A stretch of 64,000 bases of DNA from Thiomicrorhabdus indica (GTDB taxonomy: Bacteria; Pseudomonadota; Gammaproteobacteria; Thiomicrospirales; Thiomicrospiraceae), in contig NZ_CP033040.1 of assembly GCF_004293625.1 (NCBI RefSeq), positions 1,798,001 to 1,862,000 of the forward strand. The letters run 5' to 3'. This document shows positions 18,073 to 64,000 of the stretch, piece by piece. Numbering within the stretch: the stretch's first letter is position 1; every line of letters begins with the position of its first letter. A program made the position numbers and the translations under genes. The notes below the pieces were generated by a model. That model did not search any database, was not told where the DNA came from, and saw only the letters and a program-made list of their open reading frames with translations.

Positions 18073-18101
18073 ATAAAAAAACCCGCATGAATGCGGGTTA
18101 A
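18073..18101 (-). terminator. tRNA-Ser terminator
   Basis: ACCCGCAT and ATGCGGGT form a stem followed by T residues on the reverse strand, directly downstream of tRNA-Ser. A diverged copy sits in the left attachment region at 6414-6440. Confidence 0.8.
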
Positions 18102-18110
18102 TATCGAATA

Positions 18111-33802: not shown

Positions 33803-33807
33803 AACAT

Positions 33808-33945: not shown

Positions 33946-33967
33946 TTTGAAGATCTAAGCAGATCAA

Positions 33968-34011
33968 ACAAATCGGTATATCTACTTTTTAAAGTTGTTA
34001 TACCGATTTGT
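33968..34011 (-). terminator. Long hairpin between two leader units
   Basis: ACAAATCGGTATA (33968-33980) pairs with TATACCGATTTGT (33999-34011), a perfect 13-bp stem. With the nearby GC hairpin at 34021-34043 it probably terminates the gene at 34048 before leader C begins; T runs are poor. Confidence 0.5.
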
Positions 34012-47017: not shown

Positions 47018-47383
47018 CTATCGCTCTCCTGGTAATGCGTACTGCGGAGAATCGTATAATTTGAACGCCGTCGAGTAACCTGGGACGGGTACACCGCTGG
47101 CAGCCATATGAGGAAATACATACATTACTAGCGTCGGATTTGGAAGCTTAGGAAACAACATGTTCGTCTCAGTCATCACATCACGCGTATAAGCGTTGTA
47201 ATTAAAATCTGCCATCTTTCTATTTGGAGTTTGCTTTGCATCCCAAGAAGACATAGGAACCCCTTGCTTCATTAATTCTGCTGTTGACTTTGAGTCTTGT
47301 GACATCTTTTTAAGCGGTGAAGATGTGCTACACCCACTAACGCTAATCCATGTAGCCAGAGTTATGATTATCAACCGTTTCAT
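47018..47383 (-). CDS. Conjugal transfer lipoprotein (TIGR03751, VirB7-like)
   Basis: The 121-residue product has lipobox ISVSGCSTSS (Cys18). The C-terminal half contains NMLFPKLPNPTLVMYVFPHM and PVPGYSTAF, the hallmark of this family. It sits in the outer membrane and is thought to stabilise the secretion core complex. It starts inside the end of the TraB-like gene. Confidence 0.88.
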   Translation of the reverse strand: MKRLIIITLATWISVSGCSTSSPLKKMSQDSKSTAELMKQGVPMSSWDAKQTPNRKMADFNYNAYTRDVMTETNMLFPKLPNPTLVMYVFPHMAASGVPVPGYSTAFKLYDSPQYALPGER

Positions 47384-49630: not shown

Positions 49631-49636
49631 ATCAAC

Positions 49637-50356
49637 CTACATATTCTTTTTAGCTTCTTTCTGCTCATACCATTTTTGTCTTTCGGCATCTAAATCAATC
49701 TGTTGAATTTCAGCGGTAAATTCTTGATCGATTTTCAACCCCCAAGGGTTGTACTGTGGATCATCATCTTCAGCTACTACCAAAACGGGTATACGCAACG
49801 CCATATTTTTAATCTCGTAAGGCTTGTTGGTTTTCTTACTAAACTGGTCTTCTTTTATCCGAACATCTAGCCAGACTTTCCATCGACCGCCTCCCAGATC
49901 TTGAACACATTTATCATCATAAGCTCCACAGTCACCATTGACTGAGTAACTACCTAGCGGCACTACAGATCTTGCTCTTCGATCTAGTTCTCGTCTCTCT
50001 AGTCGTTCCTGATAATCTTCAAGTTTGAAAGATAGGTAGCGTTTGGTCATCAGCGCTCGGTAAGACTTGATGTTATTCAGATAATCTTCCTTCGCATCGT
50101 CTCGCCATAGATTCAGTTGCTGAAAAAGAGATCCTGCAAAGTTATAAACTTCCCAGGAATAAATCTCTCCGGTGCTTACTTCTGCACCGTACTTTAATGA
50201 CGGAGGCAAAGAGATTCTTTGCTTTTCAGGTTCAGATAGCGAAATCAACACAATAATGAACATCAAAGACAAGAAAAGCACCAAAACACCAATCACCACC
50301 CGGAGGCTGTTGATATGGGATCTATCGTTGTTTTGTTGATCAACATAACCACTCAT
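49637..50356 (-). CDS. DUF2895/TIGR03746 conjugation protein (VirB8/TraE-like)
   Basis: The start MSGYVDQQNNDRSHINSLRV overlaps the upstream stop (TAATG). The 239-residue product has one N-terminal membrane segment (about 19-40) and a periplasmic domain ending QKWYEQKEAKKNM. The PWGLKIDQEFTAEI segment fits the family. It is the VirB8-type assembly factor of the module. Confidence 0.85.
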   Translation of the reverse strand: MSGYVDQQNNDRSHINSLRVVIGVLVLFLSLMFIIVLISLSEPEKQRISLPPSLKYGAEVSTGEIYSWEVYNFAGSLFQQLNLWRDDAKEDYLNNIKSYRALMTKRYLSFKLEDYQERLERRELDRRARSVVPLGSYSVNGDCGAYDDKCVQDLGGGRWKVWLDVRIKEDQFSKKTNKPYEIKNMALRIPVLVVAEDDDPQYNPWGLKIDQEFTAEIQQIDLDAERQKWYEQKEAKKNM

Positions 50357-50682
50357 TAGTACCAAAGCCCCTTGTGACGTATAAAAAGAGATTTTCGGAT
50401 TCCCAAATTAGAAACCTGCAAATCTAACCATTGCAGAAAGTATCCGTTCGGCTTGCCACGTTTATGATTTCTTAACCACGATGCGGTCATCCAGACCGCG
50501 ATGAAAGACACAACAACTGTAAAAAAGCCGATAATCAAGAAGGCAAAATGACCGACCAGAAGTGCGATAATCACGCCAATAGCAAAATCAATTAGCACGA
50601 AATATTTCAGCAACATAATCAATTCTGAAATGGAAGCACCGCCGATCATTGACGGCTCTTCATCGGTAAACGACACCAGCAT
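50356..50682 (-). CDS. DUF3487/TIGR03750 conjugation membrane protein
   Basis: The 108-residue product has two membrane segments (about 28-66) and the conserved RGKPNGYFLQWLDLQ near the C-terminus, matching TIGR03750 (TraL/VirB3-like position). The DEEPSMIGGASISE N-terminus is also typical. Inner membrane. Confidence 0.88.
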   Translation of the reverse strand: MLVSFTDEEPSMIGGASISELIMLLKYFVLIDFAIGVIIALLVGHFAFLIIGFFTVVVSFIAVWMTASWLRNHKRGKPNGYFLQWLDLQVSNLGIRKSLFIRHKGLWY

Positions 50683-51083
50683 TAATTGCCACCAGCCAGT
50701 GTGCTTCCGAAGTTATAGACGTAGTAAGCTAAGACTCCAGCAATTGCAACCGTCAAAAGCCCAACGATCAACGTCTGCAACCAATTGCCAATTGTGTAGT
50801 TCTTATAATTATCATCATCTTGTAACTTATTCAGACCACTGACTAACCCCCATCCCCAATATGCTGCTGCACCAAGACCAACACCAATTGCTGCAAATAT
50901 CATCAGCCAGCCGATCACTTTTTTGACTAGATCATCAGCGTTGTCATCGGTACCAACAATGTCACCAATCGGAACATCCGGAGCGGCAGGTAAAGCCGCT
51001 AAAACTTCCGGTGTATAAAATCCCAGTAGAGCAACACCTGTCCCAATGATCGAACTGACTACATTTTTTGTTTTTTGATTCAT
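50682..51083 (-). CDS. TIGR03745-type conjugation membrane protein (possible pilin)
   Basis: The start MNQKTKNVVSSIIGTGVALL has a GAGGTGG site. The 133-residue product has a signal-like N-terminus and two further membrane helices separated by a short loop, as in VirB2/TraA-type prepilins, and occupies the pilin position of MPF-G modules. Confidence 0.82.
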   Translation of the reverse strand: MNQKTKNVVSSIIGTGVALLGFYTPEVLAALPAAPDVPIGDIVGTDDNADDLVKKVIGWLMIFAAIGVGLGAAAYWGWGLVSGLNKLQDDDNYKNYTIGNWLQTLIVGLLTVAIAGVLAYYVYNFGSTLAGGN

Positions 51084-51123
51084 TTGAATCCACCTCATTC
51101 AATAAAAAATAGACTAAAAAGAT

Positions 51124-51369
51124 TTAATTAGAATAGCCAGCGGCTATTAAAAATGCCGCCACAAACGCAAACAGACCAAATAGCTTGATAAAAAATACAA
51201 ACCATTCATCTATCTCGATGTCCCCATCATTCATACGCTTATAAGACTCATTCAGACTACTGGCGATTCTCCATAAAATAATGCCTACAAATAGCGCACC
51301 AAAAGCTGCATAGAAAACCGCCTGAGAACCGGAAACACTTTCAAAAACGCTAAAATCCATAGCATTCAC
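51124..51369 (-). CDS. DUF3262/TIGR03758 conjugation membrane protein
   Basis: The 81-residue product has two membrane helices (about 18-35 and 57-78) separated by an acidic segment (MNDGDIEIDEWFVFFIKL). Size, layout and gene order match TIGR03758. Confidence 0.85.
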   Translation of the reverse strand: MNAMDFSVFESVSGSQAVFYAAFGALFVGIILWRIASSLNESYKRMNDGDIEIDEWFVFFIKLFGLFAFVAAFLIAAGYSN

Positions 51370-51371
51370 CT

Positions 51372-51740
51372 CTAACGACGATAATCACCGGAAACCGGCT
51401 CAAACTCACGAGGCTGTCGCTCTGGTTGATTTAAGTGGTCTTGTATGGAATACACAATTTTTCGCAGATCCTGCTCTAGCCAGTCGTATCGAAACTTAAT
51501 ACGTTGCTCTTCTCGCTGGTGCGCTTGTGCTTTGTGGATAATCGTGTTGGCCTGCTGTAAGTAAGATGCTAAAGACCGTAATATTTCACGCTCTCTAGAA
51601 TCCAAGCCACTTAACTCATAATTTTGATGCAGCCCGTTTTTGGAGGACTGAGACAAACGTTCTTCCATGACACCAGAGTTGGCCAACACACCATTTGATG
51701 CCACAAACAGCCCTGCAAACAAAACCCATCGTTTCACCAT
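51372..51740 (-). CDS. RAQPRD-family conjugation protein
   Basis: The start MVKRWVLFAGLFVASNGVLA has a GAGGG site. The 122-residue exported product has a helical body and a C-terminal ERQPREFEPVSG, a slightly altered form of the RAQPRD motif that names TIGR01690. First gene of the second conjugation transcription unit, downstream of an operator-like repeat at 51813-51844. Confidence 0.85.
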   Translation of the reverse strand: MVKRWVLFAGLFVASNGVLANSGVMEERLSQSSKNGLHQNYELSGLDSREREILRSLASYLQQANTIIHKAQAHQREEQRIKFRYDWLEQDLRKIVYSIQDHLNQPERQPREFEPVSGDYRR

Positions 51741-51812
51741 GATTTCCCTCAAATACGTTTTTACTAAAAATTTTTAAGCGCAAGTATTCCAGAAATCAAA
51801 ATTCCACGACCC

Positions 51813-51844
51813 GATTACAAAAAACAAAAATTGACACTTGTAAT
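51813..51844 (-). promoter_or_regulatory. Shared operator-like element, copy 2
   Basis: GATTACAA (51813-51820) and CTTGTAAT (51837-51844) form an inverted repeat with the same spacing as copy 1 at 60669-60700; the spacer is also similar. It lies 73 bases upstream of the RAQPRD gene start, with TTGATT...TAAAAAT promoter-like sequences between. It suggests common regulation of both conjugation units. Confidence 0.6.
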
Positions 51845-51877
51845 TTTGTGGTGTGTTTTTAGAAATATAAAAAGAGT

Positions 51878-51915
51878 GAAAACGCCCAATGCATAAGAGT
51901 TTCAGGCGTTTTTTA
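51878..51915. terminator. Terminator between conjugation units
   Basis: AAAACGCC and GGCGTTTTTT pair around an imperfect loop just after the stop of the gene at 51928, ending the upstream transcription unit. Confidence 0.65.
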
Positions 51916-51927
51916 AGAGAAGAACAA

Positions 51928-52587
51928 TTAGAGATATTTTTTGAAATATTTTGCAACAACCCAAACCGTCATGCTGGCTGGCAAAACAAACAAAAGCATA
52001 AAAATGCTTGGATGAATGGAGATTGGTATCGAAAGATACAAAATAATTGGCAAAACCATAAAAGGAACAATGTAAGATTTTGCATGATGATACACAAAAG
52101 AAGTCTCACGGCCACCTGACCATGTTCGGATATCGCGCTCAGCTAAGCCGTCAATTAATGCAAACAGAACAAACAGCATCAAAGCAGGAATTGACATAAT
52201 AATAACGCTCAGACGCAATAATGCGGTCTGTATTACGTAAATCATGGCATAAAGATAATCTAAGACGGAAGATTGCCCCAAGAATTCAACAAACCAGCTA
52301 AACCAAGTGGTTTTTACCACCCATGTATCCAGATACTGGATAAACAATAAAGATAAATCGCCAGGTGTCACCATAAACGACTGATAATCAGAATGTAGCC
52401 ACCCAAATTCCACTTTGAGTACGTTATAAGCGTGTTGGGATCCGGAAAGACTCCACCATTGAAAATAAATCCCTACCCACTCAATCAAAATCGAGAAAAA
52501 TAACGAAATAAAATACGAAACGATTGCCAACAAAATAAATCGTGTGACATTTACGACAACGCCTTTGTTACCTGAAGTCTCTGCCAT
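51928..52587 (-). CDS. TIGR03747/DUF4400-type ICE membrane protein
   Basis: The 219-residue product has four membrane segments (about 12-33, 105-125, 135-150, 165-205) and a DGLAERDIRTWSGGRETSFV motif typical of the DUF4400 family. It follows traD (TAATG overlap), as in other MPF-G elements. It may help the coupling protein. Confidence 0.85.
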   Translation of the reverse strand: MAETSGNKGVVVNVTRFILLAIVSYFISLFFSILIEWVGIYFQWWSLSGSQHAYNVLKVEFGWLHSDYQSFMVTPGDLSLLFIQYLDTWVVKTTWFSWFVEFLGQSSVLDYLYAMIYVIQTALLRLSVIIMSIPALMLFVLFALIDGLAERDIRTWSGGRETSFVYHHAKSYIVPFMVLPIILYLSIPISIHPSIFMLLFVLPASMTVWVVAKYFKKYL

Positions 52588-54677
52588 TAAGCTGCCACCT
52601 TAGCAACACTCAGCCAATCATTATTACGACTCATCAGCCCTTCGCCGGTATTGTATTTTGCTACCATTTCACCATATACATCACTAAACTCAGTTTTAAT
52701 TTTTGGATCGTCTTCTTTCTCAGGCAACGGCATCCGGATCTTATACAATTGCCCCCCCTCAATAAGAGCAAACGCTTGGCCTTTTGGCAGCGACATAACT
52801 GTCGAGACATCAATCATATCTACTTCACGTTTAGAAGTACGATCTTCGTTTTTCGATGTAAAATCCACACCAGAACCCACATCGGATGAGTCATTGGCAC
52901 CGGTTACGGCCATAAGCTCATTCACCCGAACTTTCGGTAACTGGCTAGTTAGGATTTCCGCTGTCGTAGGCTCTTTAACACGCAGCATAATTAAGTTATT
53001 AAAGTTCCCTTTGATCTGACCTGCCTTAGACTTAGAACCGATTCGAGCCTCAATATCGCTCTCGGTCTGAGTATAGGCCGTGACTTGGTAGCCTGCACCA
53101 CCAGCCTTATTGATCATCGGAATAAATTGATCTCCAACAAGCTCATTAAATTCATCCGCATGAATACTGACTTTTCTCTGGCCGGTTTGCATTTCCGGCA
53201 AACCGAGGGTAATGCCGTTTTTGTACAAGAAACCCGACACGCTAGTTAAATCAGCAAACATCGATGCGCCGACAGCGCTAGCTACGGTTGAATCAGACAG
53301 TGCATCCAGTCCAACATACACAACTGCTTTTTGCCGTATGGCACTCATCCAATCAAAAATTGGACGTTTATCGGTCACATCTTGATAGTCCGGCGCAATA
53401 AGTTCTGCCGCTCGACCGGTGGTGAGCTTTTCAAGCAAAGGTGCCAAGCTTGATACAATTTTGTCAAAGTAACTACGATCATATTTAAAAGCCCCTAGCA
53501 GTCCATCGAGGACGGCATCATAAAATTCTGTGGCTTCGCAATATTTCAATAGCGCAATGGCTTCTGGATTACGGTCTTTCAAACTAAATGGCAAGGTCTT
53601 TGGATCTAGGTTGTCCAGAATCTGATGATAGAGTTTTTCCCATCCTTCCGGAGCCAACTTACCTAAAATCATCTTGCCGTACTTCAACAATAAAGGTTCA
53701 ATATTGTTGACGTATTTTCTGACGGAGTGATAAGAAGGTTTGTTACCCAGTGCGACATCCGCTTGCACAATGATATTTGCAAATCGCCAAGCAAATTCTT
53801 TAAACGCAGAGCTGTTTCCTTCAGATGGTAACGCATCAGACAATCGACCGGCCGGTTCCGTCACTTTGCTGAAATTACCGATCCCGTTGTAACGTGCAGA
53901 AACTTCCGGAAAGCCGAGATGAAACATATAAAATGGCCGACCGGCTCGTTTAGCCTCGATCTGACAACGCATCATCAAGTCGGCATCGCCCTTGGGATCA
54001 AAAACCACAACAACATCACCGCGACGAATATCTTGAGTAATCAAGATTTCTGCTAGCCTAGTCTTTCCAACCCTGGTTGTACCTAACACAAGTGTGTGCC
54101 CTACCCGTTCACCCAGCGGCATATCGACCGAATACTCACCTTCCAACATACCGACTGCATGAATGGCCGGATTACCACCAACCGGTGGTAAGGGTCTGAC
54201 AGGATTAAAACGGCTGTTAGATGACAGCAATACAATTAAATACCCTGCAATTTTGAATCGCTCTAACCTCTTTTCAAGTAAACGTGCCCATTGATAGATT
54301 TTAGGCGGTGTGATGTATTTTTCGTTTTCAGGCTCCATCGCATCAAACAAACGTTGAGTATGCTTTTGAGTCCAACGAAACCCTAAACCTAAAAACAAAG
54401 TACGGTTGCTAACCGGTACTTGTCTAGGACGCATTCCATAATACGGCAGTCGAACCAGGTTTTTTTGGTAACGATAAATCTTATACCCCTGTCTAAACCT
54501 GGCTAGACCAATCAGCACAAAAATAGCTGAACCGACATAAGCCATATGCTGAGACATCAACAAAATTTGAGGCATTTTATACATGATCAGACTGATGATT
54601 AAAGCGGCTGTAGCAGAATGGAATTCAACGGGCGGCCGCAGTAAAGCCTCGATGGGATACTTGGGTCGAAAAATCAT
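52587..54677 (-). CDS. traD: TraD-type conjugative coupling protein (SXT/TOL subfamily)
   Basis: From the start MIFRPKYPIEALLRPPVEFH the product has 696 residues. It has N-terminal membrane segments (about 20-60), Walker A VLGTTRVGKTRLAEIL at about 189-204, Walker B DVVVVFDPKGD and a second acidic motif SIHADEFNELVGDQF at about 500. It brings the relaxase-DNA complex to the secretion channel. The relaxase itself is not in the window. Confidence 0.92.
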   Translation of the reverse strand: MIFRPKYPIEALLRPPVEFHSATAALIISLIMYKMPQILLMSQHMAYVGSAIFVLIGLARFRQGYKIYRYQKNLVRLPYYGMRPRQVPVSNRTLFLGLGFRWTQKHTQRLFDAMEPENEKYITPPKIYQWARLLEKRLERFKIAGYLIVLLSSNSRFNPVRPLPPVGGNPAIHAVGMLEGEYSVDMPLGERVGHTLVLGTTRVGKTRLAEILITQDIRRGDVVVVFDPKGDADLMMRCQIEAKRAGRPFYMFHLGFPEVSARYNGIGNFSKVTEPAGRLSDALPSEGNSSAFKEFAWRFANIIVQADVALGNKPSYHSVRKYVNNIEPLLLKYGKMILGKLAPEGWEKLYHQILDNLDPKTLPFSLKDRNPEAIALLKYCEATEFYDAVLDGLLGAFKYDRSYFDKIVSSLAPLLEKLTTGRAAELIAPDYQDVTDKRPIFDWMSAIRQKAVVYVGLDALSDSTVASAVGASMFADLTSVSGFLYKNGITLGLPEMQTGQRKVSIHADEFNELVGDQFIPMINKAGGAGYQVTAYTQTESDIEARIGSKSKAGQIKGNFNNLIMLRVKEPTTAEILTSQLPKVRVNELMAVTGANDSSDVGSGVDFTSKNEDRTSKREVDMIDVSTVMSLPKGQAFALIEGGQLYKIRMPLPEKEDDPKIKTEFSDVYGEMVAKYNTGEGLMSRNNDWLSVAKVAA

Positions 54678-55123
54678 TATTGAGCTACCCAACCTTGATG
54701 GACAATAACGGGATACTGTTTAATATCCAAACTGTTTAAAAAGACATCTGCATTAACCAAATTTACATTTAATGGATGCGCTGCTTGACGAATTTTGTCA
54801 ATTTCCGCCAATGTTTGAATGTTGGCCAAATAACAGATTGCATGATGTTTAACGAGCAATTCCTTTCTAAGACTTAACCAACGCAATGACAGAGGATCAG
54901 CACCCAGTACACAAAATGTTCGACCGGACAACATGGGCTTAAACTGATCATAACGATTAGATAAGGAGTAAGTTGCAAAGCGTCCAGGAGATGCCGACGT
55001 GGAAAAAGGTAAAGTCGCTTGTATCATTTTGGCCAAAGGGCTTTGATCAGGACTTTGAGCAGAACACACCGGCACAACTAGCACGAGACTAAGGCTTAAG
55101 ACGGGCAATAACTTTTTGAGCAT
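54677..55123 (-). CDS. TIGR03765 (PFL_4695)-type exported ICE protein
   Basis: The start is MLKKLLPVLSLSLVLVVPVC with a signal peptide; 148 residues. LGADPLSLRWLSLRKELLVK and DIKQYPVIVH match the family pattern. The start lies within the lytic transglycosylase gene, and the stop overlaps traD. Function unknown, conserved in MPF-G elements. Confidence 0.82.
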   Translation of the reverse strand: MLKKLLPVLSLSLVLVVPVCSAQSPDQSPLAKMIQATLPFSTSASPGRFATYSLSNRYDQFKPMLSGRTFCVLGADPLSLRWLSLRKELLVKHHAICYLANIQTLAEIDKIRQAAHPLNVNLVNADVFLNSLDIKQYPVIVHQGWVAQ

Positions 55124-55574
55124 AACGGTAAGCTCTCTTACGACATTTCTTTGATGGACAGTGATACTTTGCGATTTGTAAAAACAAAGGATCACCATCA
55201 AATTGACTTAAAATTTCTGCTGCAACTCGGATATTGTTTTTTGGATCAAAGGCTTCATTCAAATTCTTAAACTTTTCTGAATGGTAGCGTAGCGATACTT
55301 GCATAATGCCGACATCGATGTTTCTCTGACCCCTCTTCAACGCCTTGTATACTTCCGCTATCGCTTGCTGTTTTGAGTTGTAATAAACCCCTTTCCCATC
55401 AAAGTTAGCCGTCCAAGGCCAGGGTTTGCCGGTCGAAGGGTTTGTAGATTCTTGCTGAGCAATACCATATAAAACCAACGGGTGATGGCCGTAGTGCTGG
55501 GCAATCTCTACAAAATGATTCGCAAACACAGGTAAAGAAGTCATCCAAATAACGCAGAACAATAAAAAACGCAC
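55089..55574 (-). CDS. Lytic transglycosylase of the conjugation system
   Basis: The 161-residue product has a signal peptide (MRFLLFCVIWMTSLPVFA) and an SLT domain with the catalytic Glu in YGIAQQESTN and the DVGIMQVSLRYH motif. It opens the peptidoglycan for the secretion channel (VirB1 role). Start is GTG. Confidence 0.88.
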   Translation of the reverse strand: MRFLLFCVIWMTSLPVFANHFVEIAQHYGHHPLVLYGIAQQESTNPSTGKPWPWTANFDGKGVYYNSKQQAIAEVYKALKRGQRNIDVGIMQVSLRYHSEKFKNLNEAFDPKNNIRVAAEILSQFDGDPLFLQIAKYHCPSKKCRKRAYRYAQKVIARLKP

Positions 55575-55579
55575 AACAA

Positions 55580-56332
55580 CTAATCCATTGTATGAACTTC
55601 TAAATTTGAACCATTTTTAGAAATAAAGGAGACTGGAACACTCAGCTTGTGCTTTGCTATAAATGTCTTATCACGATTCAATGTGATAAATCCGGTTTTA
55701 ACTAAATCTTCCGGAACATGGAGCTCCGCATAACTTTGCAATGCTTGATCTGTCGAATCATCAACAATGAAGATATCCATTTTCACCTTATAAAAACGTA
55801 CTTGATTAACCAACTGTGAAAGCCTTGCATGACACTCATCGCAATTAACCTTGGTAAAAAACTGAATACGATCATTGACACCAATTTCATCACCCCGAAT
55901 TTGATTCAATCGTTCGTAATCAAACAGCATTCGCCCTTCATTTAGCTTTCGTAACTCAGCTTGAACCATTCGCATACTGACAATTGAGCTATCAACATAC
56001 TGCACATACTTTTTAGCAAACAATTGGGCATACTTCTGCCGTTGTTCTGTTGTCTGTGCAAAAATTCCCAAAACCTCTGGAGGGGTCGATGGCGTCTCAT
56101 TTTTAGAAAGTTGCTCAGCAATGGATTTGAGTGTCAAATACCGTTTCCATTCCTGGTCATTTAATCCCCAAAACTTCTGTTCAATACTTTCAATGGCCAG
56201 TGGTTCTTTAGATTTATTTTGTTGTGACAATTGCTCAACGGATGATTTTTTTACAGAAACATCATTGGTTTCAGAAGCTTGTACAACAGATACCAACAAA
56301 GGCAGTGCACTTAGCAATAAAATTTTTTTCAC
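55580..56332 (-). CDS. TIGR03759 (PFL_4693)-type ICE protein with CxxC
   Basis: The 250-residue product has a signal peptide and WGLNDQEWKRYLTLKSIAEQ (about 53-72), the family signature. A C-terminal thioredoxin-like domain carries VNCDECHARL, a CxxC motif that may handle disulphides of pilus parts. Start GTG with GAGG upstream. Second conjugation unit neighbours are unchanged compared with PFGI-1-type elements. Confidence 0.82.
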   Translation of the reverse strand: MKKILLLSALPLLVSVVQASETNDVSVKKSSVEQLSQQNKSKEPLAIESIEQKFWGLNDQEWKRYLTLKSIAEQLSKNETPSTPPEVLGIFAQTTEQRQKYAQLFAKKYVQYVDSSIVSMRMVQAELRKLNEGRMLFDYERLNQIRGDEIGVNDRIQFFTKVNCDECHARLSQLVNQVRFYKVKMDIFIVDDSTDQALQSYAELHVPEDLVKTGFITLNRDKTFIAKHKLSVPVSFISKNGSNLEVHTMD

Positions 56333-56348
56333 CTTTTAACCTCAATCA

Positions 56349-57509
56349 TTATTTAAAAATATCCGTTAGACAGATCTCAGGCGTGTAAACGACCTTCAGT
56401 AGAGGCAAGTTATCTGTACAGCACTCATAACCTCTCCAATAATTCCATCCATACTGATTTTTTCCATCTGGATTTCTGCCCGTTGACCAGGTATCAATTC
56501 CAGTACTTTTACTTCCGAATGCTTTGCAAGTTCGATCTTTCTTAGGACTAATCATTTGCCAAAGATCTCTTTTCTCATTTGCTCTTGAACCCTTCGCTTG
56601 TACAGATATTCGCCAGTCATCGGCATTCGTTGCGATATCGACAGCTCTTTGTGCAATCACTGCTGCTGCTTTAGGATCTTCTTGCTGCATCACCGTACCG
56701 ATTCTTGGCCATACCGAACCCCAGCTATTTCCGATAAGATTAAGACCACTTCTGGAACCAATTTCTCTTTGTCCAGGCAGGTGATAACCTTTTACGATTG
56801 ACTGTATTCGATCAACAATCCCAAACCGCCATTCAAGCATATCGACCGTTGAATCATAGTAGGGAAAGAAAGGCGTGATTTTAGAAGGGCAAAACCCCAT
56901 GAATTTCGAATCGCCCATTAATTTATTCAAACCACTGATTTGGATACTATTAACTGCTGCATTAATAGCAGCTGATTTTTGCTTGTCAGTCCAGCTTTCA
57001 TCCTCATTTTTTGTATCAGGGTCATCCTGCACAAAATCAACATAAATGCTGCTACTGATTGAGCCTATTGACGAGGTGTAGTCTCCAGCAAATAACATGA
57101 AAGGATGTCCAACCACGGATGCATTTTTAAATATAAAATCACTTGCAAGGTATTCACCCATATCTAAATCCGCCCCCTTGTTACCGACAAATCCAACCAG
57201 TTGTGATTGGACTTGCCTGAACTCTTGCCAAGGCTGTTCTTCTACTTGATCGTAAACACTCACAATTAAATCCGGCAAATTGTGTCGAATTCGAGCTGAT
57301 GTCGAAATCGAACAACCTGACAACGAGCAGACAAGATGTACACACACACCTATCAAACAGTAATCAATACACTGTGGATTGATTGATGTCTCAATCGCAT
57401 CCAAAGAGGTAAATGTGGCGGCTTGAGAAGATTTAGCAGGCATCGTAAGCATGAGAAAACTCATGGTTAGATAAGAAAAAAATCTCAAGAGAACCTGTCT
57501 ATGGCGCAT
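56349..57509 (-). CDS. TIGR03756 (PFL_4710)-type, TraU-like ICE protein
   Basis: The start MRHRQVLLRFFSYLTMSFLM lies in the end of the lipoprotein gene. The 386-residue exported protein has a Cys-rich N-terminal region (NPQCIDYCLIGVCVHLVC, then GCSIST) and HNLPDLIVSVYDQ, the hallmark of PFL_4710/TraU-like periplasmic proteins. In most MPF-G elements it lies next to PFL_4711; here it sits in the other unit, a small rearrangement. Confidence 0.82.
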   Translation of the reverse strand: MRHRQVLLRFFSYLTMSFLMLTMPAKSSQAATFTSLDAIETSINPQCIDYCLIGVCVHLVCSLSGCSISTSARIRHNLPDLIVSVYDQVEEQPWQEFRQVQSQLVGFVGNKGADLDMGEYLASDFIFKNASVVGHPFMLFAGDYTSSIGSISSSIYVDFVQDDPDTKNEDESWTDKQKSAAINAAVNSIQISGLNKLMGDSKFMGFCPSKITPFFPYYDSTVDMLEWRFGIVDRIQSIVKGYHLPGQREIGSRSGLNLIGNSWGSVWPRIGTVMQQEDPKAAAVIAQRAVDIATNADDWRISVQAKGSRANEKRDLWQMISPKKDRTCKAFGSKSTGIDTWSTGRNPDGKNQYGWNYWRGYECCTDNLPLLKVVYTPEICLTDIFK

Positions 57510-58824
57510 ACTGCACAACCACAACATCTTGCTGGTGACTTGCTACCTGATCTAGGTTTTGAGCATCCAAAGGGGTTTGGCTGACGTAAACCTTAAACTG
57601 ATAAACGCCTGCTACATTAGGAAGCAATGCCGTTGTACTAGCGCTTTCAGCCATCGATATCGATGCATCTGGAGTCAAACTTTCCCAATAGTAATACAGC
57701 TTTTCACTCTCAATTTGAGCCAAAACATTAACGCTCAAATCCACAACTGATTGGTTGACGTTTAAAGACTGCCCAGCATCAACGTGATAAATCAAATCAC
57801 TCGACTTCACGACAACTAATCGGTCTCGATTGAACTCAGGAACTGATTGCCGCTGATCCACTGTGTCTAACTGAGTTTTGCTGACCAATAACTCAAATTC
57901 ATACATTCCATCATTCGAGAGTTCGACGGATGTACTTAAACTGTTTTGACTGACAATATTTGAATTCTCTTCAGAAACCGCTTGCCAGTAGTAAAAAATG
58001 GCTTCTTCAGACGCTGATCCAGACAGTTCTATAATATTTTCATGCGTATAAATCGACGATCCAGCTTCTACATTTAAGACTGTTGGGTTAGAAGACTGGT
58101 TGATATGAACTGAAATTGTATCGGTTGCTTCACGACCTAATTCATCGACAACCGTTAAACGATAAACGAGACTGCCGTTGGAAATGGTTCCAAGGTAATC
58201 AGGGACAGAAATTTCTAAAAATTCAGATTCTGAGGTGGTTGGAAAGTCATAATTGAAGTCATTGGATAATAATTGCCACTGATAACTAACCTCGTGATAA
58301 CGTTGATCCAAATTGACGACTGGAGACAAATACACTTTTTCGCCGTTTTGAGCGAGTTGATCTTGTCCTAAAGTAACATTTAAAGGGCTTAATTCACCTG
58401 GCAGCATTTGAACGGAAATAAAGCTTTCAGAATAATTTCCGTAAATGTCGTAAGCTTGTGCTTGAAACTGGTAGTCCTGTGTAGAAGTGATATAAGGTTT
58501 TTCAAACCTTGCTGTACACGAGACTCGCTGTTTATCCTCTTCCCATACGACACCTGTATCTAGATTAGAATCATATTCACACACCGTTTGAATTGGTTCT
58601 AAAGACTCTCCGGAGACCTGAGTGACTTGGATAAAATCCGGTTGAAAATTGCCGACATAATTTGACTGTAAATAGAGGGTATCGCCTTGATAAGCCGTTT
58701 CAGTTATTGCGTTTTCAGTAAAAGATACTGATAGCTTCGCTTCATCCGGTGATACCTGGCTCTGGCAGCCTACTTGAACTCCTGCTAGAGAGAGTAATAC
58801 AACCAATAATTTTCTATTTTTCAT
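57499..58824 (-). CDS. Lipoprotein with repeated Ig/PKD-like domains
   Basis: The 441-residue product has lipobox LAGVQVGCQSQ (Cys19). The rest is built from several beta-sandwich repeats with recurring patterns such as VSYQWQLLSNDF, FYYWQAVSEENSN and LYYYWESLTPDASI. It looks like a surface adhesin or a cell-wall-spanning stalk. It overlaps the TraU-like gene by 11 bases, so it belongs to the conjugation operon; it may promote donor-recipient contact. Not a usual member of the MPF-G core. Confidence 0.7.
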   Translation of the reverse strand: MKNRKLLVVLLSLAGVQVGCQSQVSPDEAKLSVSFTENAITETAYQGDTLYLQSNYVGNFQPDFIQVTQVSGESLEPIQTVCEYDSNLDTGVVWEEDKQRVSCTARFEKPYITSTQDYQFQAQAYDIYGNYSESFISVQMLPGELSPLNVTLGQDQLAQNGEKVYLSPVVNLDQRYHEVSYQWQLLSNDFNYDFPTTSESEFLEISVPDYLGTISNGSLVYRLTVVDELGREATDTISVHINQSSNPTVLNVEAGSSIYTHENIIELSGSASEEAIFYYWQAVSEENSNIVSQNSLSTSVELSNDGMYEFELLVSKTQLDTVDQRQSVPEFNRDRLVVVKSSDLIYHVDAGQSLNVNQSVVDLSVNVLAQIESEKLYYYWESLTPDASISMAESASTTALLPNVAGVYQFKVYVSQTPLDAQNLDQVASHQQDVVVVQYAP

Positions 58825-58847: not shown

Positions 58848-59633
58848 TTAAGCCAAATGGCGTTTATAAGGCTTTGTATGAAGAGGTAACTGCCTGACAT
58901 GCTCTAGTTCGAGAGGCTTACTGAAGTAGTAGCCTTGGTAATAGTCACAGTTCAAGCTACATAAGATGTCTAGTTGATGCTGGCATTCCACTTTCTCGGC
59001 CGTGACTGTTTTGCCAAGCTTGTGGCACAACGTAATTAAGCTGCAAGTGACTTCAAAATGCTTGCGATCGAAGTGGACGGATTCAATCAACTGTCCGTCG
59101 AGTTTTACGTTGTGATACAAATCAGTAATCTTGATCATCGAGTCAAAACCGTTGCCAAAATCATCAATAGACAAATCAATTGAAAGATTGGCCAACGTCT
59201 TAAGGTTTTCTCTTAGAGTCGCTTTATGAAATGGGTTAGGTTTAGTTTCTAATACTTCGATTTCTACCAGCACTTCAGGATGAAGGTGACGCATTCGCGT
59301 TACTTCATCAACATAACGTGTATCAATTCCGAGAGTCAAAGGGCTGACATTTAAAGCAAATGTGACGGATTGAAACTGACTATTTGCATAAAACAATTGC
59401 TGTACATCCAGATAAAACCGCTTTAGCACAGCCAAATCTAAGAAAACCATTTTTTCAACTTCCAGTTCTGCCCAATCAACCAAGCTTTGGGGAGAAATGG
59501 GAGGGTCTGTATCCAGCCTTAGTAAGACTTCGAATTTTTGTAAACTTTGTTCTTTATCAACGATGGGTTGATAAACCAATCGCATTAAGTGATTTATTTC
59601 GAACATATCAAATGAAATTAAGGTTTTACTCAT
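58848..59633 (-). CDS. EAL-domain c-di-GMP phosphodiesterase
   Basis: The 261-residue protein is a stand-alone EAL domain. The signature is EVL (QKFEVLLRLD), a common variant. Residues needed for activity appear present: Asn in FALNVSPLTL, Glu in VEIEVLE, the Asp pair in SIDDFGNGF, Lys in NVKLDGQLI, Glu in TAEKVE and Gln in YYQGYYFSKPL. It should cleave cyclic di-GMP. Placed inside the conjugation operon, it could switch host cells from sessile to transfer-ready state, which is inference. Confidence 0.82.
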   Translation of the reverse strand: MSKTLISFDMFEINHLMRLVYQPIVDKEQSLQKFEVLLRLDTDPPISPQSLVDWAELEVEKMVFLDLAVLKRFYLDVQQLFYANSQFQSVTFALNVSPLTLGIDTRYVDEVTRMRHLHPEVLVEIEVLETKPNPFHKATLRENLKTLANLSIDLSIDDFGNGFDSMIKITDLYHNVKLDGQLIESVHFDRKHFEVTCSLITLCHKLGKTVTAEKVECQHQLDILCSLNCDYYQGYYFSKPLELEHVRQLPLHTKPYKRHLA

Positions 59634-59644
59634 CAATGACTTCC

Positions 59645-60601
59645 TTACCCTTCAACTTTCTTGATAACTTTTTGGTCATCTTTCTTGTAAACAATTTCAT
59701 TCTTTGTCAGATCGATATGCACAACAGACCACCCCATCAATGAATCGCCAATAAACAACATTTTTAACTGCGATTTTGGATATTCGACAAACGCTGCATT
59801 TTTGCTTGACCAACGAGTAAAAGAAACAGGAGCCGGTAAACGAGAGACTTCACTTTTATTCACCCGTTTTTTTTCAGACTCTGTTTTTTTAGACGTTGTT
59901 TTTGAGTGAATTTTTTTCTGTAGGTCTACAACTTTCTCAACAAGCCCCTGAAGAGACTTTTGATTCTCAATGCTTAATTCTTTGTTTTTAACAACCGAGC
60001 TTTCTAGCTTGGAAATTTTGAACAGTAAATCCACACGATCTTTTTCAATCTGTCCTGCAAATTCTTCAAACTTTTCATGTAACGAATGGGATTCTTGCTT
60101 TGTATCCAAAGATTCAGTCTCCAGTTCTACTAATTCATTTGGGTACTTTTCAGATTCCAAAAGATCGTGTGGCGTTGACTGAGAAATGGTAGATAAATTA
60201 TGAGCCGTGGTACTTACAGTATTACTTGGACTCAGTACTATTGGCTTTGAATTCACTAATTCAAGTGGTTTTATAGCTGCTGAAGGCTCAGAAAGCTTTT
60301 GGGGTATGGTAGAAGTATTGGTTTTTTGATTAAAATCGATAATATCTTCGACTTTAGCAGGCTCTGTTTCAATCACTTGTTCTTTTTCTAAGAAACCCAG
60401 CAAGCCTAAAAAGCCTACAGCAGCGACTACGAATAAGATCAGCACAACAAAGATTGTCTTAACAATTTTTATGAATTTGCGAATTTTAGAATTACCAGCA
60501 GACGTTTTATCGACCGACTGCTCTTCAGCGGAAGAGGCTGAGGAGTTTAGAGAGCTAGATGAATCATCATCCGACGGCAACGGTGGCAAATTTTCACTCA
60601 T
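59645..60601 (-). CDS. Inner-membrane protein with coiled coil, first gene of conjugation unit 1
   Basis: The 318-residue product has a Ser/Asp-rich N-terminus, one membrane helix (about 48-71), a coiled-coil stretch (about 165-235) and a C-terminal compact domain (MLFIGDSLMGWSVVHIDLTK) that resembles the small beta domain of PilP/GspC-type proteins. This hints at a type IV pilus link together with the next gene upstream. Family not firmly recognised. Confidence 0.6.
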   Translation of the reverse strand: MSENLPPLPSDDDSSSSLNSSASSAEEQSVDKTSAGNSKIRKFIKIVKTIFVVLILFVVAAVGFLGLLGFLEKEQVIETEPAKVEDIIDFNQKTNTSTIPQKLSEPSAAIKPLELVNSKPIVLSPSNTVSTTAHNLSTISQSTPHDLLESEKYPNELVELETESLDTKQESHSLHEKFEEFAGQIEKDRVDLLFKISKLESSVVKNKELSIENQKSLQGLVEKVVDLQKKIHSKTTSKKTESEKKRVNKSEVSRLPAPVSFTRWSSKNAAFVEYPKSQLKMLFIGDSLMGWSVVHIDLTKNEIVYKKDDQKVIKKVEG

Positions 60602-60668
60602 TTTTTTACATACCCATAGAAAAATAATTACGTAAGTAAGGTTAGTAAAAAAATGAAATCAAAGTACC

Positions 60669-60700
60669 GATTACAAGAAACAAAATCTCACACTTGTAAT
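60669..60700 (-). promoter_or_regulatory. Shared operator-like element, copy 1
   Basis: GATTACAAG (60669-60677) and CTTGTAAT (60693-60700) form an inverted repeat, 68 bases upstream of the first gene of conjugation unit 1. Copy 2 with equal spacing lies at 51813-51844. TTGATTTC follows on the reverse strand in both. Confidence 0.6.
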
Positions 60701-60711
60701 TTATCAATAAA

Positions 60712-60749
60712 AAAAGGTGCTTAACCCACTATCGAATTAAGCACCTTTT
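60712..60749 (-). terminator. Intrinsic terminator
   Basis: AAAAGGTGCTTAA pairs with TTAAGCACCTTTT; T run on the reverse strand. It ends the transcript of the pilus-ATPase-like gene. Confidence 0.8.
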
Positions 60750-60772
60750 ACGTTTTAAAACAATTACTTAAA

Positions 60773-61609
60773 TTATGCTGATCGTGATATTTCATCCATA
60801 CCGATGGTGTTGTCTTTTAACACTTCAGTCATCATTAATGAACCTAGCGCAAGCTCAACATCTCTCGGATCCAAAATCCCGTTCGCCATTTTTGTAGAGG
60901 CGTGTTGCAACATTGTCTGAAATCCAATTTTATTTCGCATATGATCCAGAGCGTTAAGACGTTCACTTTTTAGTAAATGATGACCAACATATTCATCCAG
61001 AGCTAACACTTCAGCAACAACGGTCGTTGAGGATATATTTCCAATTCGTAGGCGTATATTCTGGTCGATATCGATGGATCTCATAAAACGATTCCTGGCT
61101 TCAAAAGGTATGTGTTTTTCTGCGGATTGAGACAAGAATTCAACGGATTTCGTTTTTGAATCAATCATCGGAATTTCTTTCACGCAGCAAACACCCGTCA
61201 AAATCGTGGGTGAAAAGATCAGCTCATTCATGAGTAGAAAATGCAGCTTATCAATCACATTCAAAACACCGTGTGAACGAACACTTGCCCATACTTGAGC
61301 ACCACTCATTGCCAACTCAACACAACGTCTAACAGCTTTACGCTCATTGATCTCGTCAACCACAAAAATATTGTACTCATCGAGCATTTCATCTGTAACG
61401 TCAGCTAACTTTCCACGGTACACGCTTTTTGATGGCCCTATCTGGCCATCAAAACTTTCAGCAATGAGTTTCATAACCTTATCAGCAGCTTTCAGATCAG
61501 CTGAAGCAATAATATTCAAGCCTGATGCCAGCCGCTGTAAAAACAAAAACGTATCGAGGTGGGCTTCAGAAAAGCCGCAGTCTTTTAAAACAGAATTATA
61601 TTGATGCAT
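60773..61609 (-). CDS. PilT/GspE-like pseudo-ATPase
   Basis: The 278-residue product aligns by eye with the C-terminal ATPase half of PilB/PilT/GspE proteins: FVVDEINERKAVRRCVELAM (Walker B and following), GAQVWASVRSHGVLNVIDKL (the STLHTND region) and ILTGVCC near the usual GV-Q motif. The Walker A site that should lie near GLNIIASADLKAADKVMKLI lacks GK(S/T), so ATP hydrolysis is doubtful. It may be a regulatory or structural relative. It lies directly after the RT gene. Confidence 0.65.
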   Translation of the reverse strand: MHQYNSVLKDCGFSEAHLDTFLFLQRLASGLNIIASADLKAADKVMKLIAESFDGQIGPSKSVYRGKLADVTDEMLDEYNIFVVDEINERKAVRRCVELAMSGAQVWASVRSHGVLNVIDKLHFLLMNELIFSPTILTGVCCVKEIPMIDSKTKSVEFLSQSAEKHIPFEARNRFMRSIDIDQNIRLRIGNISSTTVVAEVLALDEYVGHHLLKSERLNALDHMRNKIGFQTMLQHASTKMANGILDPRDVELALGSLMMTEVLKDNTIGMDEISRSA

Positions 61610-61620
61610 GTTTCCACCTT

Positions 61621-62952
61621 TTATAGATTAAATTTGCTTTGACAATGGGAAAACATCCCTCTGTAAGCAGCAAGGGATTTATCGAAATTTTCTTTGTTTA
61701 AGTTTAATTTACTGTTGGCCAAGTTTCTTTCCACTCGACGATAGGTGTTTCTTCTTAAGTAGACTCGACCAGGTAATATGAAGTATCCCAATAAATCTAT
61801 ACCTTTTGATGTCTGGTTAAATATGGTTTTTTTTGGGTTAAAGTTCATGAGCAACCGTTTCGAAACAAAGTTTTCCATTAAAAGATGGCAACGCTTAATA
61901 AAGCGAATATCCTGGTGAATAATTAAAATATCATCCACATATCGAATGTAATGTTCTACACCTACTACATGCTTCATATACCAATCTAGTTCATTCATTA
62001 CAACATTTGCTATCAATTGAGAATCTAGGTTTCCAATTGGTAGCCCTCTGTCTTGATGAGCTTTAAAAAGGCTTTTATGCTCTGGAACCTTACTGAAATT
62101 CAGGGCATTTCCTTTTTTAATCGCCTCTTCTCTTCGTTGATTAAAAAGGGTTTCATGTAGCAAAAACTGCAAAACATCATTTTCTAAAACACCATCTCGT
62201 TTAAAAATTTTCCAAACGGTTGGCAAGTGAATGCTTGCGAAAAAATTTGCTAAATCAAATTTTCCGAAATATGCAATGTCTTTGTAGTTTTTAGTTTCTT
62301 TTCGCGTTGCTTTAACCGCTCTAGTAACAGCGTTATGTATTCCTCTTCCTGGGATGCATGCATAAGAATCTTGGATAAATCTTTTGTGATACCAGGGTGA
62401 GATTCGGTTATAAATGATGTGGTGAACAACTCTATCTCTAAATTGAGCTGCCCAAACCTCCCTTGGTTTAGGCTTGGTTACAACGAACACTTCGCTCGGT
62501 AGTGGCTTATATCTTTGCGATTTGATCTCTTCAAAGAGGTTGATTAGATTTTTTTCAAGATCCATTTCAAACTGTATTTGATGATCTGAATTTCGCTTAT
62601 TTTTACGACACGAGTAGTAGGCTTTGAATACCTCTTCAAGAGTGAATGGATAATCTGCGATCGGAACAATATCTTCTTGAAGTTTTTCTATAGCACCAAT
62701 AGGTGGAACGGCTTGGTATTGACTGCGGACACAACGAACTCGGTTGAGATTGTTCTTGTTGTTGTTGCTCTGGCTGCCATCACTAAAGCTCTGGTACCAT
62801 GCGTTATTGGCATTGTTCTCAGTGGAAGACCAGTAATTAGCTGTGGCAGCGCCATTGGTAAACACTCTTGCCGATGCACTCGGTTGCTTTTGAGCAGCGT
62901 CGGTTGCGCAGTCAAGCGGCAAGTTCAGTTGTAAATTCAACTTATTATTCAC
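61621..62952 (-). CDS. DGR reverse transcriptase
   Basis: The RT domain runs from about residue 103 to the end. Motifs seen: AAQFRDRVVHHIIYNRISPW, DSYACIPGRGIHNAV, GKFDLANFFASIH, GLPIGNLDSQLIANVV (the SQ form typical of DGR enzymes), the catalytic YIRYVDDILII and LLGYFILPGRVYLR. The open frame starts at a GTG (62952) and passes through the template repeat (residues about 37-77). No ATG, GTG, TTG or CTG codon lies in frame between the TR and the conserved RT region, so the true start is uncertain. It makes mutagenised cDNA from TR RNA. Confidence 0.93.
   Translation of the reverse strand: MNNKLNLQLNLPLDCATDAAQKQPSASARVFTNGAATANYWSSTENNANNAWYQSFSDGSQSNNNKNNLNRVRCVRSQYQAVPPIGAIEKLQEDIVPIADYPFTLEEVFKAYYSCRKNKRNSDHQIQFEMDLEKNLINLFEEIKSQRYKPLPSEVFVVTKPKPREVWAAQFRDRVVHHIIYNRISPWYHKRFIQDSYACIPGRGIHNAVTRAVKATRKETKNYKDIAYFGKFDLANFFASIHLPTVWKIFKRDGVLENDVLQFLLHETLFNQRREEAIKKGNALNFSKVPEHKSLFKAHQDRGLPIGNLDSQLIANVVMNELDWYMKHVVGVEHYIRYVDDILIIHQDIRFIKRCHLLMENFVSKRLLMNFNPKKTIFNQTSKGIDLLGYFILPGRVYLRRNTYRRVERNLANSKLNLNKENFDKSLAAYRGMFSHCQSKFNL
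62696..62715. repeat. 20-bp inverted repeat, RT-side arm
   Basis: CCAATAGGTGGAACGGCTTG is the exact inverse complement of 63067-63086. It lies 6 bases beyond the TR 3' end (coding orientation), inside the start of the RT frame. Confidence 0.9.
62722..62843 (-). repeat. DGR template repeat (TR)
   Basis: These 122 bases align without gaps to the VR at 63509-63630. There are nine differences, all at coding-strand adenines of the TR: 62754, 62759, 62760, 62763, 62780, 62795, 62805, 62807 and 62817 (four A to T, three A to C, two A to G). About 39 adenines are available. The codons are rich in AAC and AAT, as in other DGR templates. Confidence 0.97.
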
Positions 62953-63065
62953 TTCGTCGCTCTGCCTTCTGCACTTTCTACCTGTCTTATGGATTCAGGT
63001 GGTTTACAACAAATACCAGTCAAATCTGCTCTCTCATATTTACCTTAATAAATATAAATCCGGCT

Positions 63066-63440
63066 TCAAGCCGTTCCACCTATTGGCGCTTGTTTTCTTT
63101 TTTCACTTTTTTTCCAACCTTCGGCTTGTTTGCAAATTTCAACGTTTAAATTAGATAGACGAGCAAACTGTCCAATTGAAATAAAGTGCATGTCTTTACA
63201 TAAACGAAGGCTTAGCATAATTAGCTCCATGCGCTCTAAAATTTCTATTATTTTTGAAAGCCTATCTGTTGAAGAATTGTTGACACGATAGATCATGAGA
63301 ACGATATCTCTAGATTGCTCAATCAAATCCTTGCCTAAAACTAATTTGTAGTCCCGTGGAAAATTTTTTACCACTTTCGTAATCATTAAAACTAGGTCAT
63401 AAGTTTTCTTGTAAATGGGTAGATGGTCTGCTCTTGCCAT
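63066..63440 (-). CDS. avd: Avd-like DGR accessory protein (four-helix bundle)
   Basis: The 124-residue product (MARADHLPIYKKTYDLVLMI...) has the pattern of the bAvd/S23-type four-helix bundle family: YDLVLMITKVVKNFPRDYKL, then LIEQSRDIVLMIYRVNN. It is basic at the C-terminus. Avd pentamers bind RT and TR RNA. The start has a GGAGACC site. The last codons lie in the 20-bp inverted repeat arm (63067-63086). Confidence 0.92.
   Translation of the reverse strand: MARADHLPIYKKTYDLVLMITKVVKNFPRDYKLVLGKDLIEQSRDIVLMIYRVNNSSTDRLSKIIEILERMELIMLSLRLCKDMHFISIGQFARLSNLNVEICKQAEGWKKSEKRKQAPIGGTA
63067..63086. repeat. 20-bp inverted repeat, avd-side arm
   Basis: It is the exact inverse complement of 62696-62715 and encodes the end of Avd (PIGGTA). 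Together the arms enclose the TR and about 220 bases upstream of it. Confidence 0.9.
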
Positions 63441-63460
63441 ATGGTCTCCAAAAAATTTCG

Positions 63461-63480
63461 CTGAGCCGTAAACGGCTCAG
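63461..63480. promoter_or_regulatory. Hairpin downstream of VR
   Basis: CTGAGCCG and CGGCTCAG form a perfect 8-bp stem with a 4-base loop, 28 bases beyond the VR 3' end. DGRs such as BPP-1 need a hairpin of similar size after the VR for efficient retrohoming. A weak T run further on (reverse strand) means it could also act as a terminator of the target gene. Confidence 0.7.
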
Positions 63481-63502
63481 AAAGAATCAAATACTCAAAT
63501 AA

Positions 63503-64000
63503 TCAATAACTGCGGACACAACGAACTCGGTTGAGATTGTACTTGAGGTCGTTGCTCTGGCTGCCAACACTAAAGCTCTGGGACCATGCGTAAGTGGCAT
63601 TGTCCTCAGTGGAAGACCAGTAATTAGCTGGGGAGAATCCTCCAATTAAGTCCTTTTGTGCAAAGAGGCTGTTCAACTGAGTCTTGGCTGGTAAATACCA
63701 GCCACTCCCTTTGTCAGAACAAAGTTTTGCTGCCACAGCATTTGATGAATTATTTGGTAAGCAGCTTTGTGTGATTGAGGTGTTATATTCTCCGTTTGTG
63801 GTTGAGGATGCCCCAGTAGATTGGTTGTAGCATCCATATTCAGCTGTACGATTTTCATCAAAAAGTGCAGCAGCCATACCTGGTTCAACCGTTATGCCTC
63901 CATTTGGACTTACAGTCTTGACATACAAAGAGCCACTGGCTTCTAAATAAAATCGACACTTTGTAACACCTGAATAAGACATACAGTTTGGATATAAATT
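63503..64000 (-). CDS. DGR target protein, DUF1566/Lcl (C-type-lectin-like) domain, 5' partial
   Basis: The frame is open to the right edge, so the ATG at 63982 is probably internal. The visible C-terminal 165 residues contain the DUF1566/Lcl pattern: AAKLCSDKGSGWYLPAKTQL, ANYWSSTEDNATYAWSQSFS and the last NLNRVRCVRSY. The VR encodes the final ~41 residues. Eight of them differ from the TR-encoded peptide (several Asn to Asp, Thr, Tyr or Leu). It is probably an exported binding protein; its anchor lies outside the window. Confidence 0.9.
   Translation of the reverse strand, partial: NLYPNCMSYSGVTKCRFYLEASGSLYVKTVSPNGGITVEPGMAAALFDENRTAEYGCYNQSTGASSTTNGEYNTSITQSCLPNNSSNAVAAKLCSDKGSGWYLPAKTQLNSLFAQKDLIGGFSPANYWSSTEDNATYAWSQSFSVGSQSNDLKYNLNRVRCVRSY
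63509..63630 (-). repeat. DGR variable repeat (VR)
   Basis: 122 bases, offset 787 from the TR, no indels. It ends two codons before the target stop. All nine mismatches fall on TR adenines, the signature of adenine-specific mutagenic retrohoming. Confidence 0.97.

Follow-up and report, generated by a model that had tools for sequence, protein, structure and literature searches.

What does a diversity-generating retroelement (DGR) diversify when it is carried by an element that moves by conjugation? The question is raised by a 64,000-nucleotide stretch of the Thiomicrorhabdus indica genome (positions 1798001-1862000 of contig C1 in a 2.83-Mb single-contig genome; hereafter the window), where the minus strand of 61621-64000 carries, in this order, the 3' end of a target gene, avd, a template repeat (TR) and a reverse transcriptase (RT) gene. 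An earlier note, made from the letters of the window, had described a complete DGR in canonical order on a conjugative element. The order was borne out, with all parts on the minus strand, and so was carriage by an integrative and conjugative element (ICE). As a correction, the window contains only the 3' part of the target gene (63503-64000, the gene extending to 64345; here and below, coordinates above 64000 carry the window numbering on). The note had also missed that the target stands in a run of type IVb pilus genes, because the window cuts the element and the target continues past 64000. We propose, with a probability of roughly 0.6, that the DGR varies a pilus adhesin that is secreted and has a lectin fold, and hence the recognition of recipients by the ICE.

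Repeats, reverse transcriptase and target

The TR was aligned with the variable repeat (VR), which lies in the 3'-terminal part of the target. The earlier limits (TR 62722-62843, VR 63509-63630) gave 9 mismatches, all at adenines, as had been claimed (39 adenines in 122 positions; chance 1.7e-5), and the homology was found to extend 3 bp beyond them. Over the resulting 125 ungapped base pairs (TR 62722-62846, VR 63509-63633, both on the minus strand) there were 10 mismatches, every one at a coding-strand adenine of the TR (10/40 adenines against 0/85 other positions; chance 4.8e-6). Nine codons were altered, all nine non-synonymously, and none of the nine varied residues fell on any of the 12 positions that are invariant, or nearly so, in an alignment of 21 target sequences. 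The codon make-up of the TR resembled that of other DGR templates: 11 of 41 codons were AAY and a single stop-capable codon, AAG, was present, with a theoretical yield of up to ~10^22 variant proteins. A whole-genome search with 62692-62870 at E 0.001 returned only the query itself, the VR and one inverted-repeat arm; thus, one target was detected. The adenine-only differences sustain the statement of the earlier note that the DGR has been active as one about the past, and do not by themselves imply present activity; the RT tail, described below, is short. A TR/VR pair was obtained for 129 of the 139 related loci that have Avd and RT in order, with 1708 adenine and 50 non-adenine mismatches, a ratio inflated by the search design because the search scores favour adenine and at least four adenine mismatches were required.

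The RT (61621-62697, minus strand) matched RVT_1 (E 7.5e-19) and retained the DGR motifs GLPIGNLDSQ (G...xSQ type) and YVDD (YxDD type). Its best match among solved structures was 8ub7 (E 1.2e-32), the enzyme encoded by the DGR of phage BPP-1. The nine best phage matches were 37-42% identical and included Burkholderia phage Magia, for which both Avd and a potential DGR target are annotated. In a tree of 75 RTs, the enzyme fell on the DGR side, not outside the DGR enzymes, and a split with 100/99 support separated it from an RT of group II type; the structure match and this placement uphold the DGR reading in the earlier note. We rejected a defence RT, a retron and a group II intron on account of the motifs, the tree and the adenine-only TR/VR differences; with PADLOC, the best match was to a general RT model (1e-32), while defence RT models scored lower (best 6e-25). 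The open reading frame (ORF) of the RT, 61621-62952, stays open across the TR, and the RT family match spans about 61621-62650. Since no in-frame ATG, GTG or TTG was found between 62865 and 62565, the RT would be translated through the TR, or begin at an unusual start codon, or start late at 62565; the RT ORF was open over the entire TR in 97 of the 129 related DGRs.

The avd gene (63066-63440, minus strand) was matched by the DGR families bAvd (PF22296; E 7.3e-15, 55.8 bits, cut-off 40) and PHROG 'Avd protein of DGR' (E 5e-27). With an RT of the DGR clade, an adenine-type TR/VR pair, Avd and a VR at the 3' end of a target with a C-type-lectin fold, the locus is confirmed as a DGR.

The strong repeats within 60500-64000 were the TR/VR pair and a stem flanking the TR. 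The latter is a 24-nt inverted repeat (23/24 paired) that surrounds the leader and TR, with its 5' arm at the end of avd (63067-63090) and its 3' arm 6 nt after the TR (62692-62715), and it forms the closing stem of a predicted fold (z -5.9). The inverted repeat scored 21, whereas none of 60 mononucleotide shuffles of the set scored above 11; 12/139 related DGRs, some of them near-copies, reached 12 or higher. A palindrome with an 8-bp stem and a 4-nt loop lies 28 bp downstream of the VR (63461-63480), and no comparable palindrome was seen after the TR. The Bordetella phage DGR needs a hairpin of such a kind after its VR.

The target gene, on the minus strand, has an open reading frame for 280 aa with a Pfam Lcl_C match barely above its cut-off (E 1.7e-8; 35.2 bits against 34.9). 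By eye, its N-terminus is likely a Sec signal peptide and has no lipobox. A structure model built with 21 sequences (mean predicted local distance difference test score, pLDDT, 62) was confident only at about residues 151-280 (block pLDDT 74-96), which are predicted to adopt a C-type-lectin fold. The best Foldseek match of the modelled domain was 8q4e, the C-terminal domain of Legionella Lcl (E 5.5e-6), and a fimbrial protein of Bacteroides ovatus was also near (E 2e-4).

The pilus gene run and its host element

Upstream of the target, a type IVb pilus gene set occupies 65026-74278 and consists of orf149, a PilT-like ATPase, the prepilin PilS, PilR, PilQ, PilO, PilP, PilN and PilL2, so that the run reads PilL-N-P-O-Q-R-S-T, orf149, a short prepilin, target, avd, TR, RT. 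The short prepilin (64353-65060, in the same run) takes the pilV position and its stop lies 7 bp before the target start; we identified it by this position and by a near-cut-off prepilin signal (a G|MAMLE motif by eye; TIGR02532 at 15.6 bits, below the cut-off of 16.3). Directly downstream of the RT is a PilQ-like ATPase paralogue without the Walker A region (60773-61609, minus strand), which had no Pfam match and was 23% identical to PilQ in a single BLASTP comparison (E 3e-8). From the succession of prepilin, target, avd, RT and PilQ paralogue, the DGR lies within the pilus gene run. Pfam T2SSE, T2SSF, Secretin and TcpQ were above their cut-offs, as was TIGR03748 for PilL2 of PFGI-1-class ICE pili; PilO was below its Pfam cut-off, the best match of PilN was to the type IVB PilN family TIGR02520 (E 1e-39, but 136.5 against a cut-off of 287.65 bits) and PilP, with no Pfam match, was named by position. 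The run thus contains PilL, a secretin, two ATPases, PilR and a prepilin, the genes expected of a conjugative type IVb pilus. Among plasmid matches to the secretin, 2406/2819 were on records typed as conjugative, in an Escherichia-rich set with ~24% identity among the matches listed. The run also includes an EAL-domain gene (58848-59636), for which the sister ICE described below gave no match; a link to cyclic di-GMP (c-di-GMP) is possible.

R64-type shufflons combine PilV with Rci. On the Stutzerimonas plasmid NZ_CP071900, the pilus genes run N-O-P-Q-R-S-ATPase-PilV and are followed by a 'site-specific integrase', the PilV being annotated as 'shufflon system plasmid conjugative transfer pilus tip adhesin PilV'. 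Since that run ends in PilV and an integrase, the DGR target occupies the slot of the shufflon adhesin; the PilV-adjacent integrase itself had no match in the stretch read around the T. indica locus (L006), and no shufflon with an Rci-type recombinase and inverting cassettes was recognised there.

The element is about 69.8 kb long and is bounded by 50-bp repeats at 22621-22670 and 92359-92408, the right copy lying in tRNA-Met. At its right end, beyond the window, are an integrase (91199-92047; Phage_integrase E 9e-29) and a MobH relaxase of the PFGI-1 class (89058-91202; model match). Conjugation genes for a type IV secretion system of the genomic island (GI) type extend over 40620-57527 on the minus strand, with TraD at 52587-54692, VirB4 at 44126-47017 and TraU at 56349-57527. 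TraD (TOL type) and VirB4 (PFL_4706 family) were above cut-offs, and six more ICE families were found by TIGR model, two above and four below cut-offs; the ICE models above cut-off were NF041494, TIGR03760, TIGR03748, TIGR03754 and TIGR03744. Genes for a topoisomerase and a single-stranded DNA-binding protein were also found, with ParA- and TrfA-like genes at the left end. The MobH relaxase, TraD, VirB4, phage-type integrase and tRNA-Met end repeats bear out the earlier ICE claim, and by its gene content the element is a PFGI-1-class or GI-type ICE, for which excision and transfer are predicted. A prophage origin of the locus was rejected because its neighbours are ICE and pilus genes.

In the 32 genomes of the genus, TraD was found at E 1e-50 in two, the present genome and one other (87% identical). 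The latter holds a sister ICE that carries the 50-bp repeats as well (96% identical in one copy), with one of them in tRNA-Met. This sister aligns with the present element over most of its length, with a colinear middle and both end blocks inverted. The blastn homology breaks at 56903 and resumes at 74794. In 80 kb around the sister ICE, tblastn at 1e-5 gave no match for 15/20 query proteins, namely those of the DGR, those of the EAL, PKD and orf278 genes, and all pil proteins other than a short PilL. The remaining five did match: TraD, TraC, TraU (orf392), PilL over residues 7-139 and orf318 at 25%. The RT had no match in the whole sister genome, where the best PilN match was weak (E 1.6e-7). 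The DGR and the pil genes therefore seem to be gained or lost jointly, either as one block or in separate events at one place.

We searched for a second instance of a DGR in a pilus run. The 160 nearest RT loci (the best 80 from genomes and the best 80 viral ones, with flanks of up to 10 kb and many shorter) were often phage DGRs, and 0/160 adjoined a match to pil or Tra proteins; with 20 ICE proteins as phmmer queries at 1e-3, 0/160 had a match beyond RT, Avd or target, in a search with our own proteins that divergent pil genes could escape. PilL2 was searched in 369 genomes and, at 34 of the 36 other places listed, no DGR RT was found; 32 of these stretches had no PilN or PilQ match, several were short contigs, and the sole RT among them (L309) was of group II type by its QGGVVSP motif. 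At 20 of the 21 top-scoring places for the PilN family and two PilL2 stretches, several cut by contig ends, a DGR RT was found in 0/22. Avd in the 369 genomes led to 16 stretches (covering 17/34 other places listed), of which 12 had a DGR-type RT, 0/12 with a pil match; the sole Avd stretch with pil-type genes (L388) had no RT. The target was found in seven other genomes, and none of the 8/11 places read was beside a pil match. Among plasmids, the prepilin found no record and the target found one, the Methylomonas plasmid CP157006, with no RT, Avd or pil match in a 30-kb stretch. No viral contig with PilQ or target and, with the RT as a single-sequence query, no genome contig was confirmed.

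These searches returned further observations. A single 1.5-Mb contig (G381) had 12 Avd matches, seven of them equal-scoring, and a 19.9-kb stretch of it (L389) held RT matches, a pair of Avd genes and repetitive ORFs of great length; this small genome perhaps has many DGRs. In another genome (G240, stretch L039), a target-like gene at 8845-9892 (55% over the last 67 residues) has an Avd-like fragment directly behind it; in the 19.5-kb stretch read, phmmer gave no match to the window RT. On the Methylomonas plasmid (L048, 7573-15204), a relative of TraD (E 3e-86) lies near a 3-kb ORF whose product has a target-like domain at its end.

Elsewhere on the ICE, a repeat of up to 200 bp with several hairpins occurs at 33781-33980, 34593, 74717, 76013, 78092 and 78647; it had six matches in the 132-kb stretch around the ICE and six in the 80 kb around the sister ICE. 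A cargo gene at 30910-32004 resembles an AbiLi-type anti-phage ATPase (E 6e-54; AAA_15). Outside the ICE, a match to the anti-phage defence protein PD-T7-3 was found at 3083-4399 (E 6e-162), and a phage-type integrase beside tRNA-Ser (16665-18201) possibly marks a second, separate island.

What the varied domain may recognise

By the established DGR mechanism, RNA of the TR would be copied by RT and Avd with errors at adenines, and the mutated complementary DNA would replace the VR at the 3' end of the target; the outcome of this process is seen at the locus in the adenine-only TR/VR differences. The target would probably be exported via the Sec pathway, reach or ride the pilus tip with the adjacent short prepilin, and display a C-type-lectin domain with a varying binding face. 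Such a face would alter the cell surfaces held by the pilus, so that the element could try new recipients, by analogy the same role as that of the PilV variants of the R64 shufflon and of PilV2 in PAPI-1. The most far-reaching form of this proposal, to which we give even odds, is that the ICE varies the recognition domain of its own conjugative pilus and that a donor population thereby comes to hold many potential recipient specificities.

Several results weigh against this proposal. A coding-strand run of T follows the palindrome at 63461-63480, between the target and avd, and hairpin and T run together may form a terminator there, which leaves a single transcript as something we infer. The Rfam RT-15 leader RNA was not detected at the window DGR and was present in 4/4 phage relatives tested. 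In the model of the target, 118/280 residues had a pLDDT below 50, chiefly 1-64 and 82-136, and these regions leave the manner of joining the pilus without a model. No PilV adhesin was recognisable by sequence in the window run: the short prepilin had no sequence match to PilV of NZ_CP071900 (E 1.7), and its own model, made without an alignment, was poor (pLDDT 38). PLSDB types NZ_CP071900 as non-mobilizable, yet a relaxase and transfer genes are annotated on it. The RT has a long branch (1.78) in the 75-row tree, and only 11 residues past the conserved Gly against a median of 39 in the 160 relatives, a tail ~28 residues short that only 1/160 relatives equals; it also deviates from the consensus at 5/64 conserved columns, where the maximum in relatives is 4. 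Finally, a second genome with the DGR-in-pilus arrangement was not found, within the bounds set by flank length, short contigs, best-scoring places and queries with our own proteins.

The state of the RT bears on whether the DGR still works. Once functional, it could have been disabled recently by loss of the RT C-terminal end, leaving the VR frozen, and both the short tail and the five departures at conserved columns, which were defined from rows without the window RT, point that way. We consider this unlikely, as GLPIGNLDSQ and YVDD are kept, avd and the TR/VR pair are intact, the target ORF is open and, by eye, no frameshift remnant was seen past the RT stop. A different doubt concerns the beneficiary. 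The target could be a pilus-linked or secreted adhesin for surfaces, particles or eukaryotes that benefits the host cell and not conjugation: 84/160 related DGR loci contain a match to the target, and in none of these did the flanking sequence read show genes of this ICE; the closest fold is the adhesin domain of Legionella Lcl, and the EAL (c-di-GMP) gene is nearby, attachment genes being often under c-di-GMP control. That the run has PilL2 of ICE pili, sits on an ICE and places the target in the slot of a transfer-pilus adhesin makes such a role, in our judgement, somewhat improbable. Variation at the pilus tip might instead serve escape from pilus-binding phages, since proteins at the tip are exposed and phages commonly use pili as receptors; a C-type-lectin fold suggests binding rather than hiding, and we regard this explanation as very unlikely.

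If the DGR does diversify a mating adhesin, the consequences would be considerable, as the choice of recipients limits how far mobile DNA spreads. To our knowledge, known conjugative systems rely on a single pilus adhesin or on a few shuffled versions; here, a retroelement would supply near-unlimited variants, a third route to recipient choice beside fixed PilV and shufflons, and DGR biology and conjugation specificity would become one testable question. An adaptive role would also be suggested for a cellular DGR, a class whose targets, as far as we know, mostly lack known ligands.

Comparison with known systems

The DGR of phage BPP-1 has the gene order mtd-avd-TR-RT and a hairpin after the VR. 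The window DGR shares with it this order, Avd, adenine-specific change, the hairpin and a C-type-lectin target, and differs in its location on an ICE, a target in a pilus run, the 24-bp stem around leader and TR, and the short RT tail.

The earlier note had named a DGR on a Legionella mobile element as precedent; the LdtA system of Legionella, reportedly described by Arambula in 2013, has a surface-displayed target. DGRs on mobile elements are indeed already known (PMC8867640, PMC3521204; like all PMC papers here, cited from the part of the text that was available). The LdtA target is an outer-membrane lipoprotein (PMC8867640), a surface-type target as in the window but not a protein of a pilus run. 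Bacteroides DGRs diversify tip pilins of type V pili (Macadangdang et al., cited in PMC12632263), likewise a pilus adhesin, in another pilus class and phylum, and the available part of that source describes no mating pilus. A DGR on a mobile element and a DGR acting on a pilus tip are thus known, while for a DGR in a conjugative type IVb pilus run we found no prior report in the literature searched, mostly outside subscription journals and assessed from titles, abstract openings and excerpts; in the available text of Roux 2021 (PMC8144416), 'pilus', 'pili', 'conjugat' and 'plasmid' have 0 occurrences. The arrangement therefore appears new, and a mating role would be the testable claim of the present case.

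The precedent for such a role comes from PAPI-1 and R64. In PAPI-1, with the pil genes L2-N2-O2-P2-Q2-R2-S2-T2-V2-M2, transfer drops when any one of ten pil genes carries an insertion, and PilV2 binds the lipopolysaccharide of recipients, whereas in R64 the PilV variants are generated by a shufflon (PMC5297154). The present element resembles the PAPI-1 and PFGI-1 ICEs in PilL2, the pil gene run and a PFGI-1-class MobH relaxase. It differs from PAPI-1, whose PilV2 is described as a minor subunit of the pilus and for which the available part of PMC5297154 mentions no DGR; here, a DGR target stands beside a short prepilin. With the R64 shufflon and NZ_CP071900 it shares the slot that closes a type IVb pilus gene run and the general logic of a variable adhesin, though O and P are in a different order from that of NZ_CP071900 and orf149 is extra. 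Unlike in a shufflon, the variation arises by mutagenic reverse transcription rather than DNA inversion, and the target is a separate, probably secreted protein.

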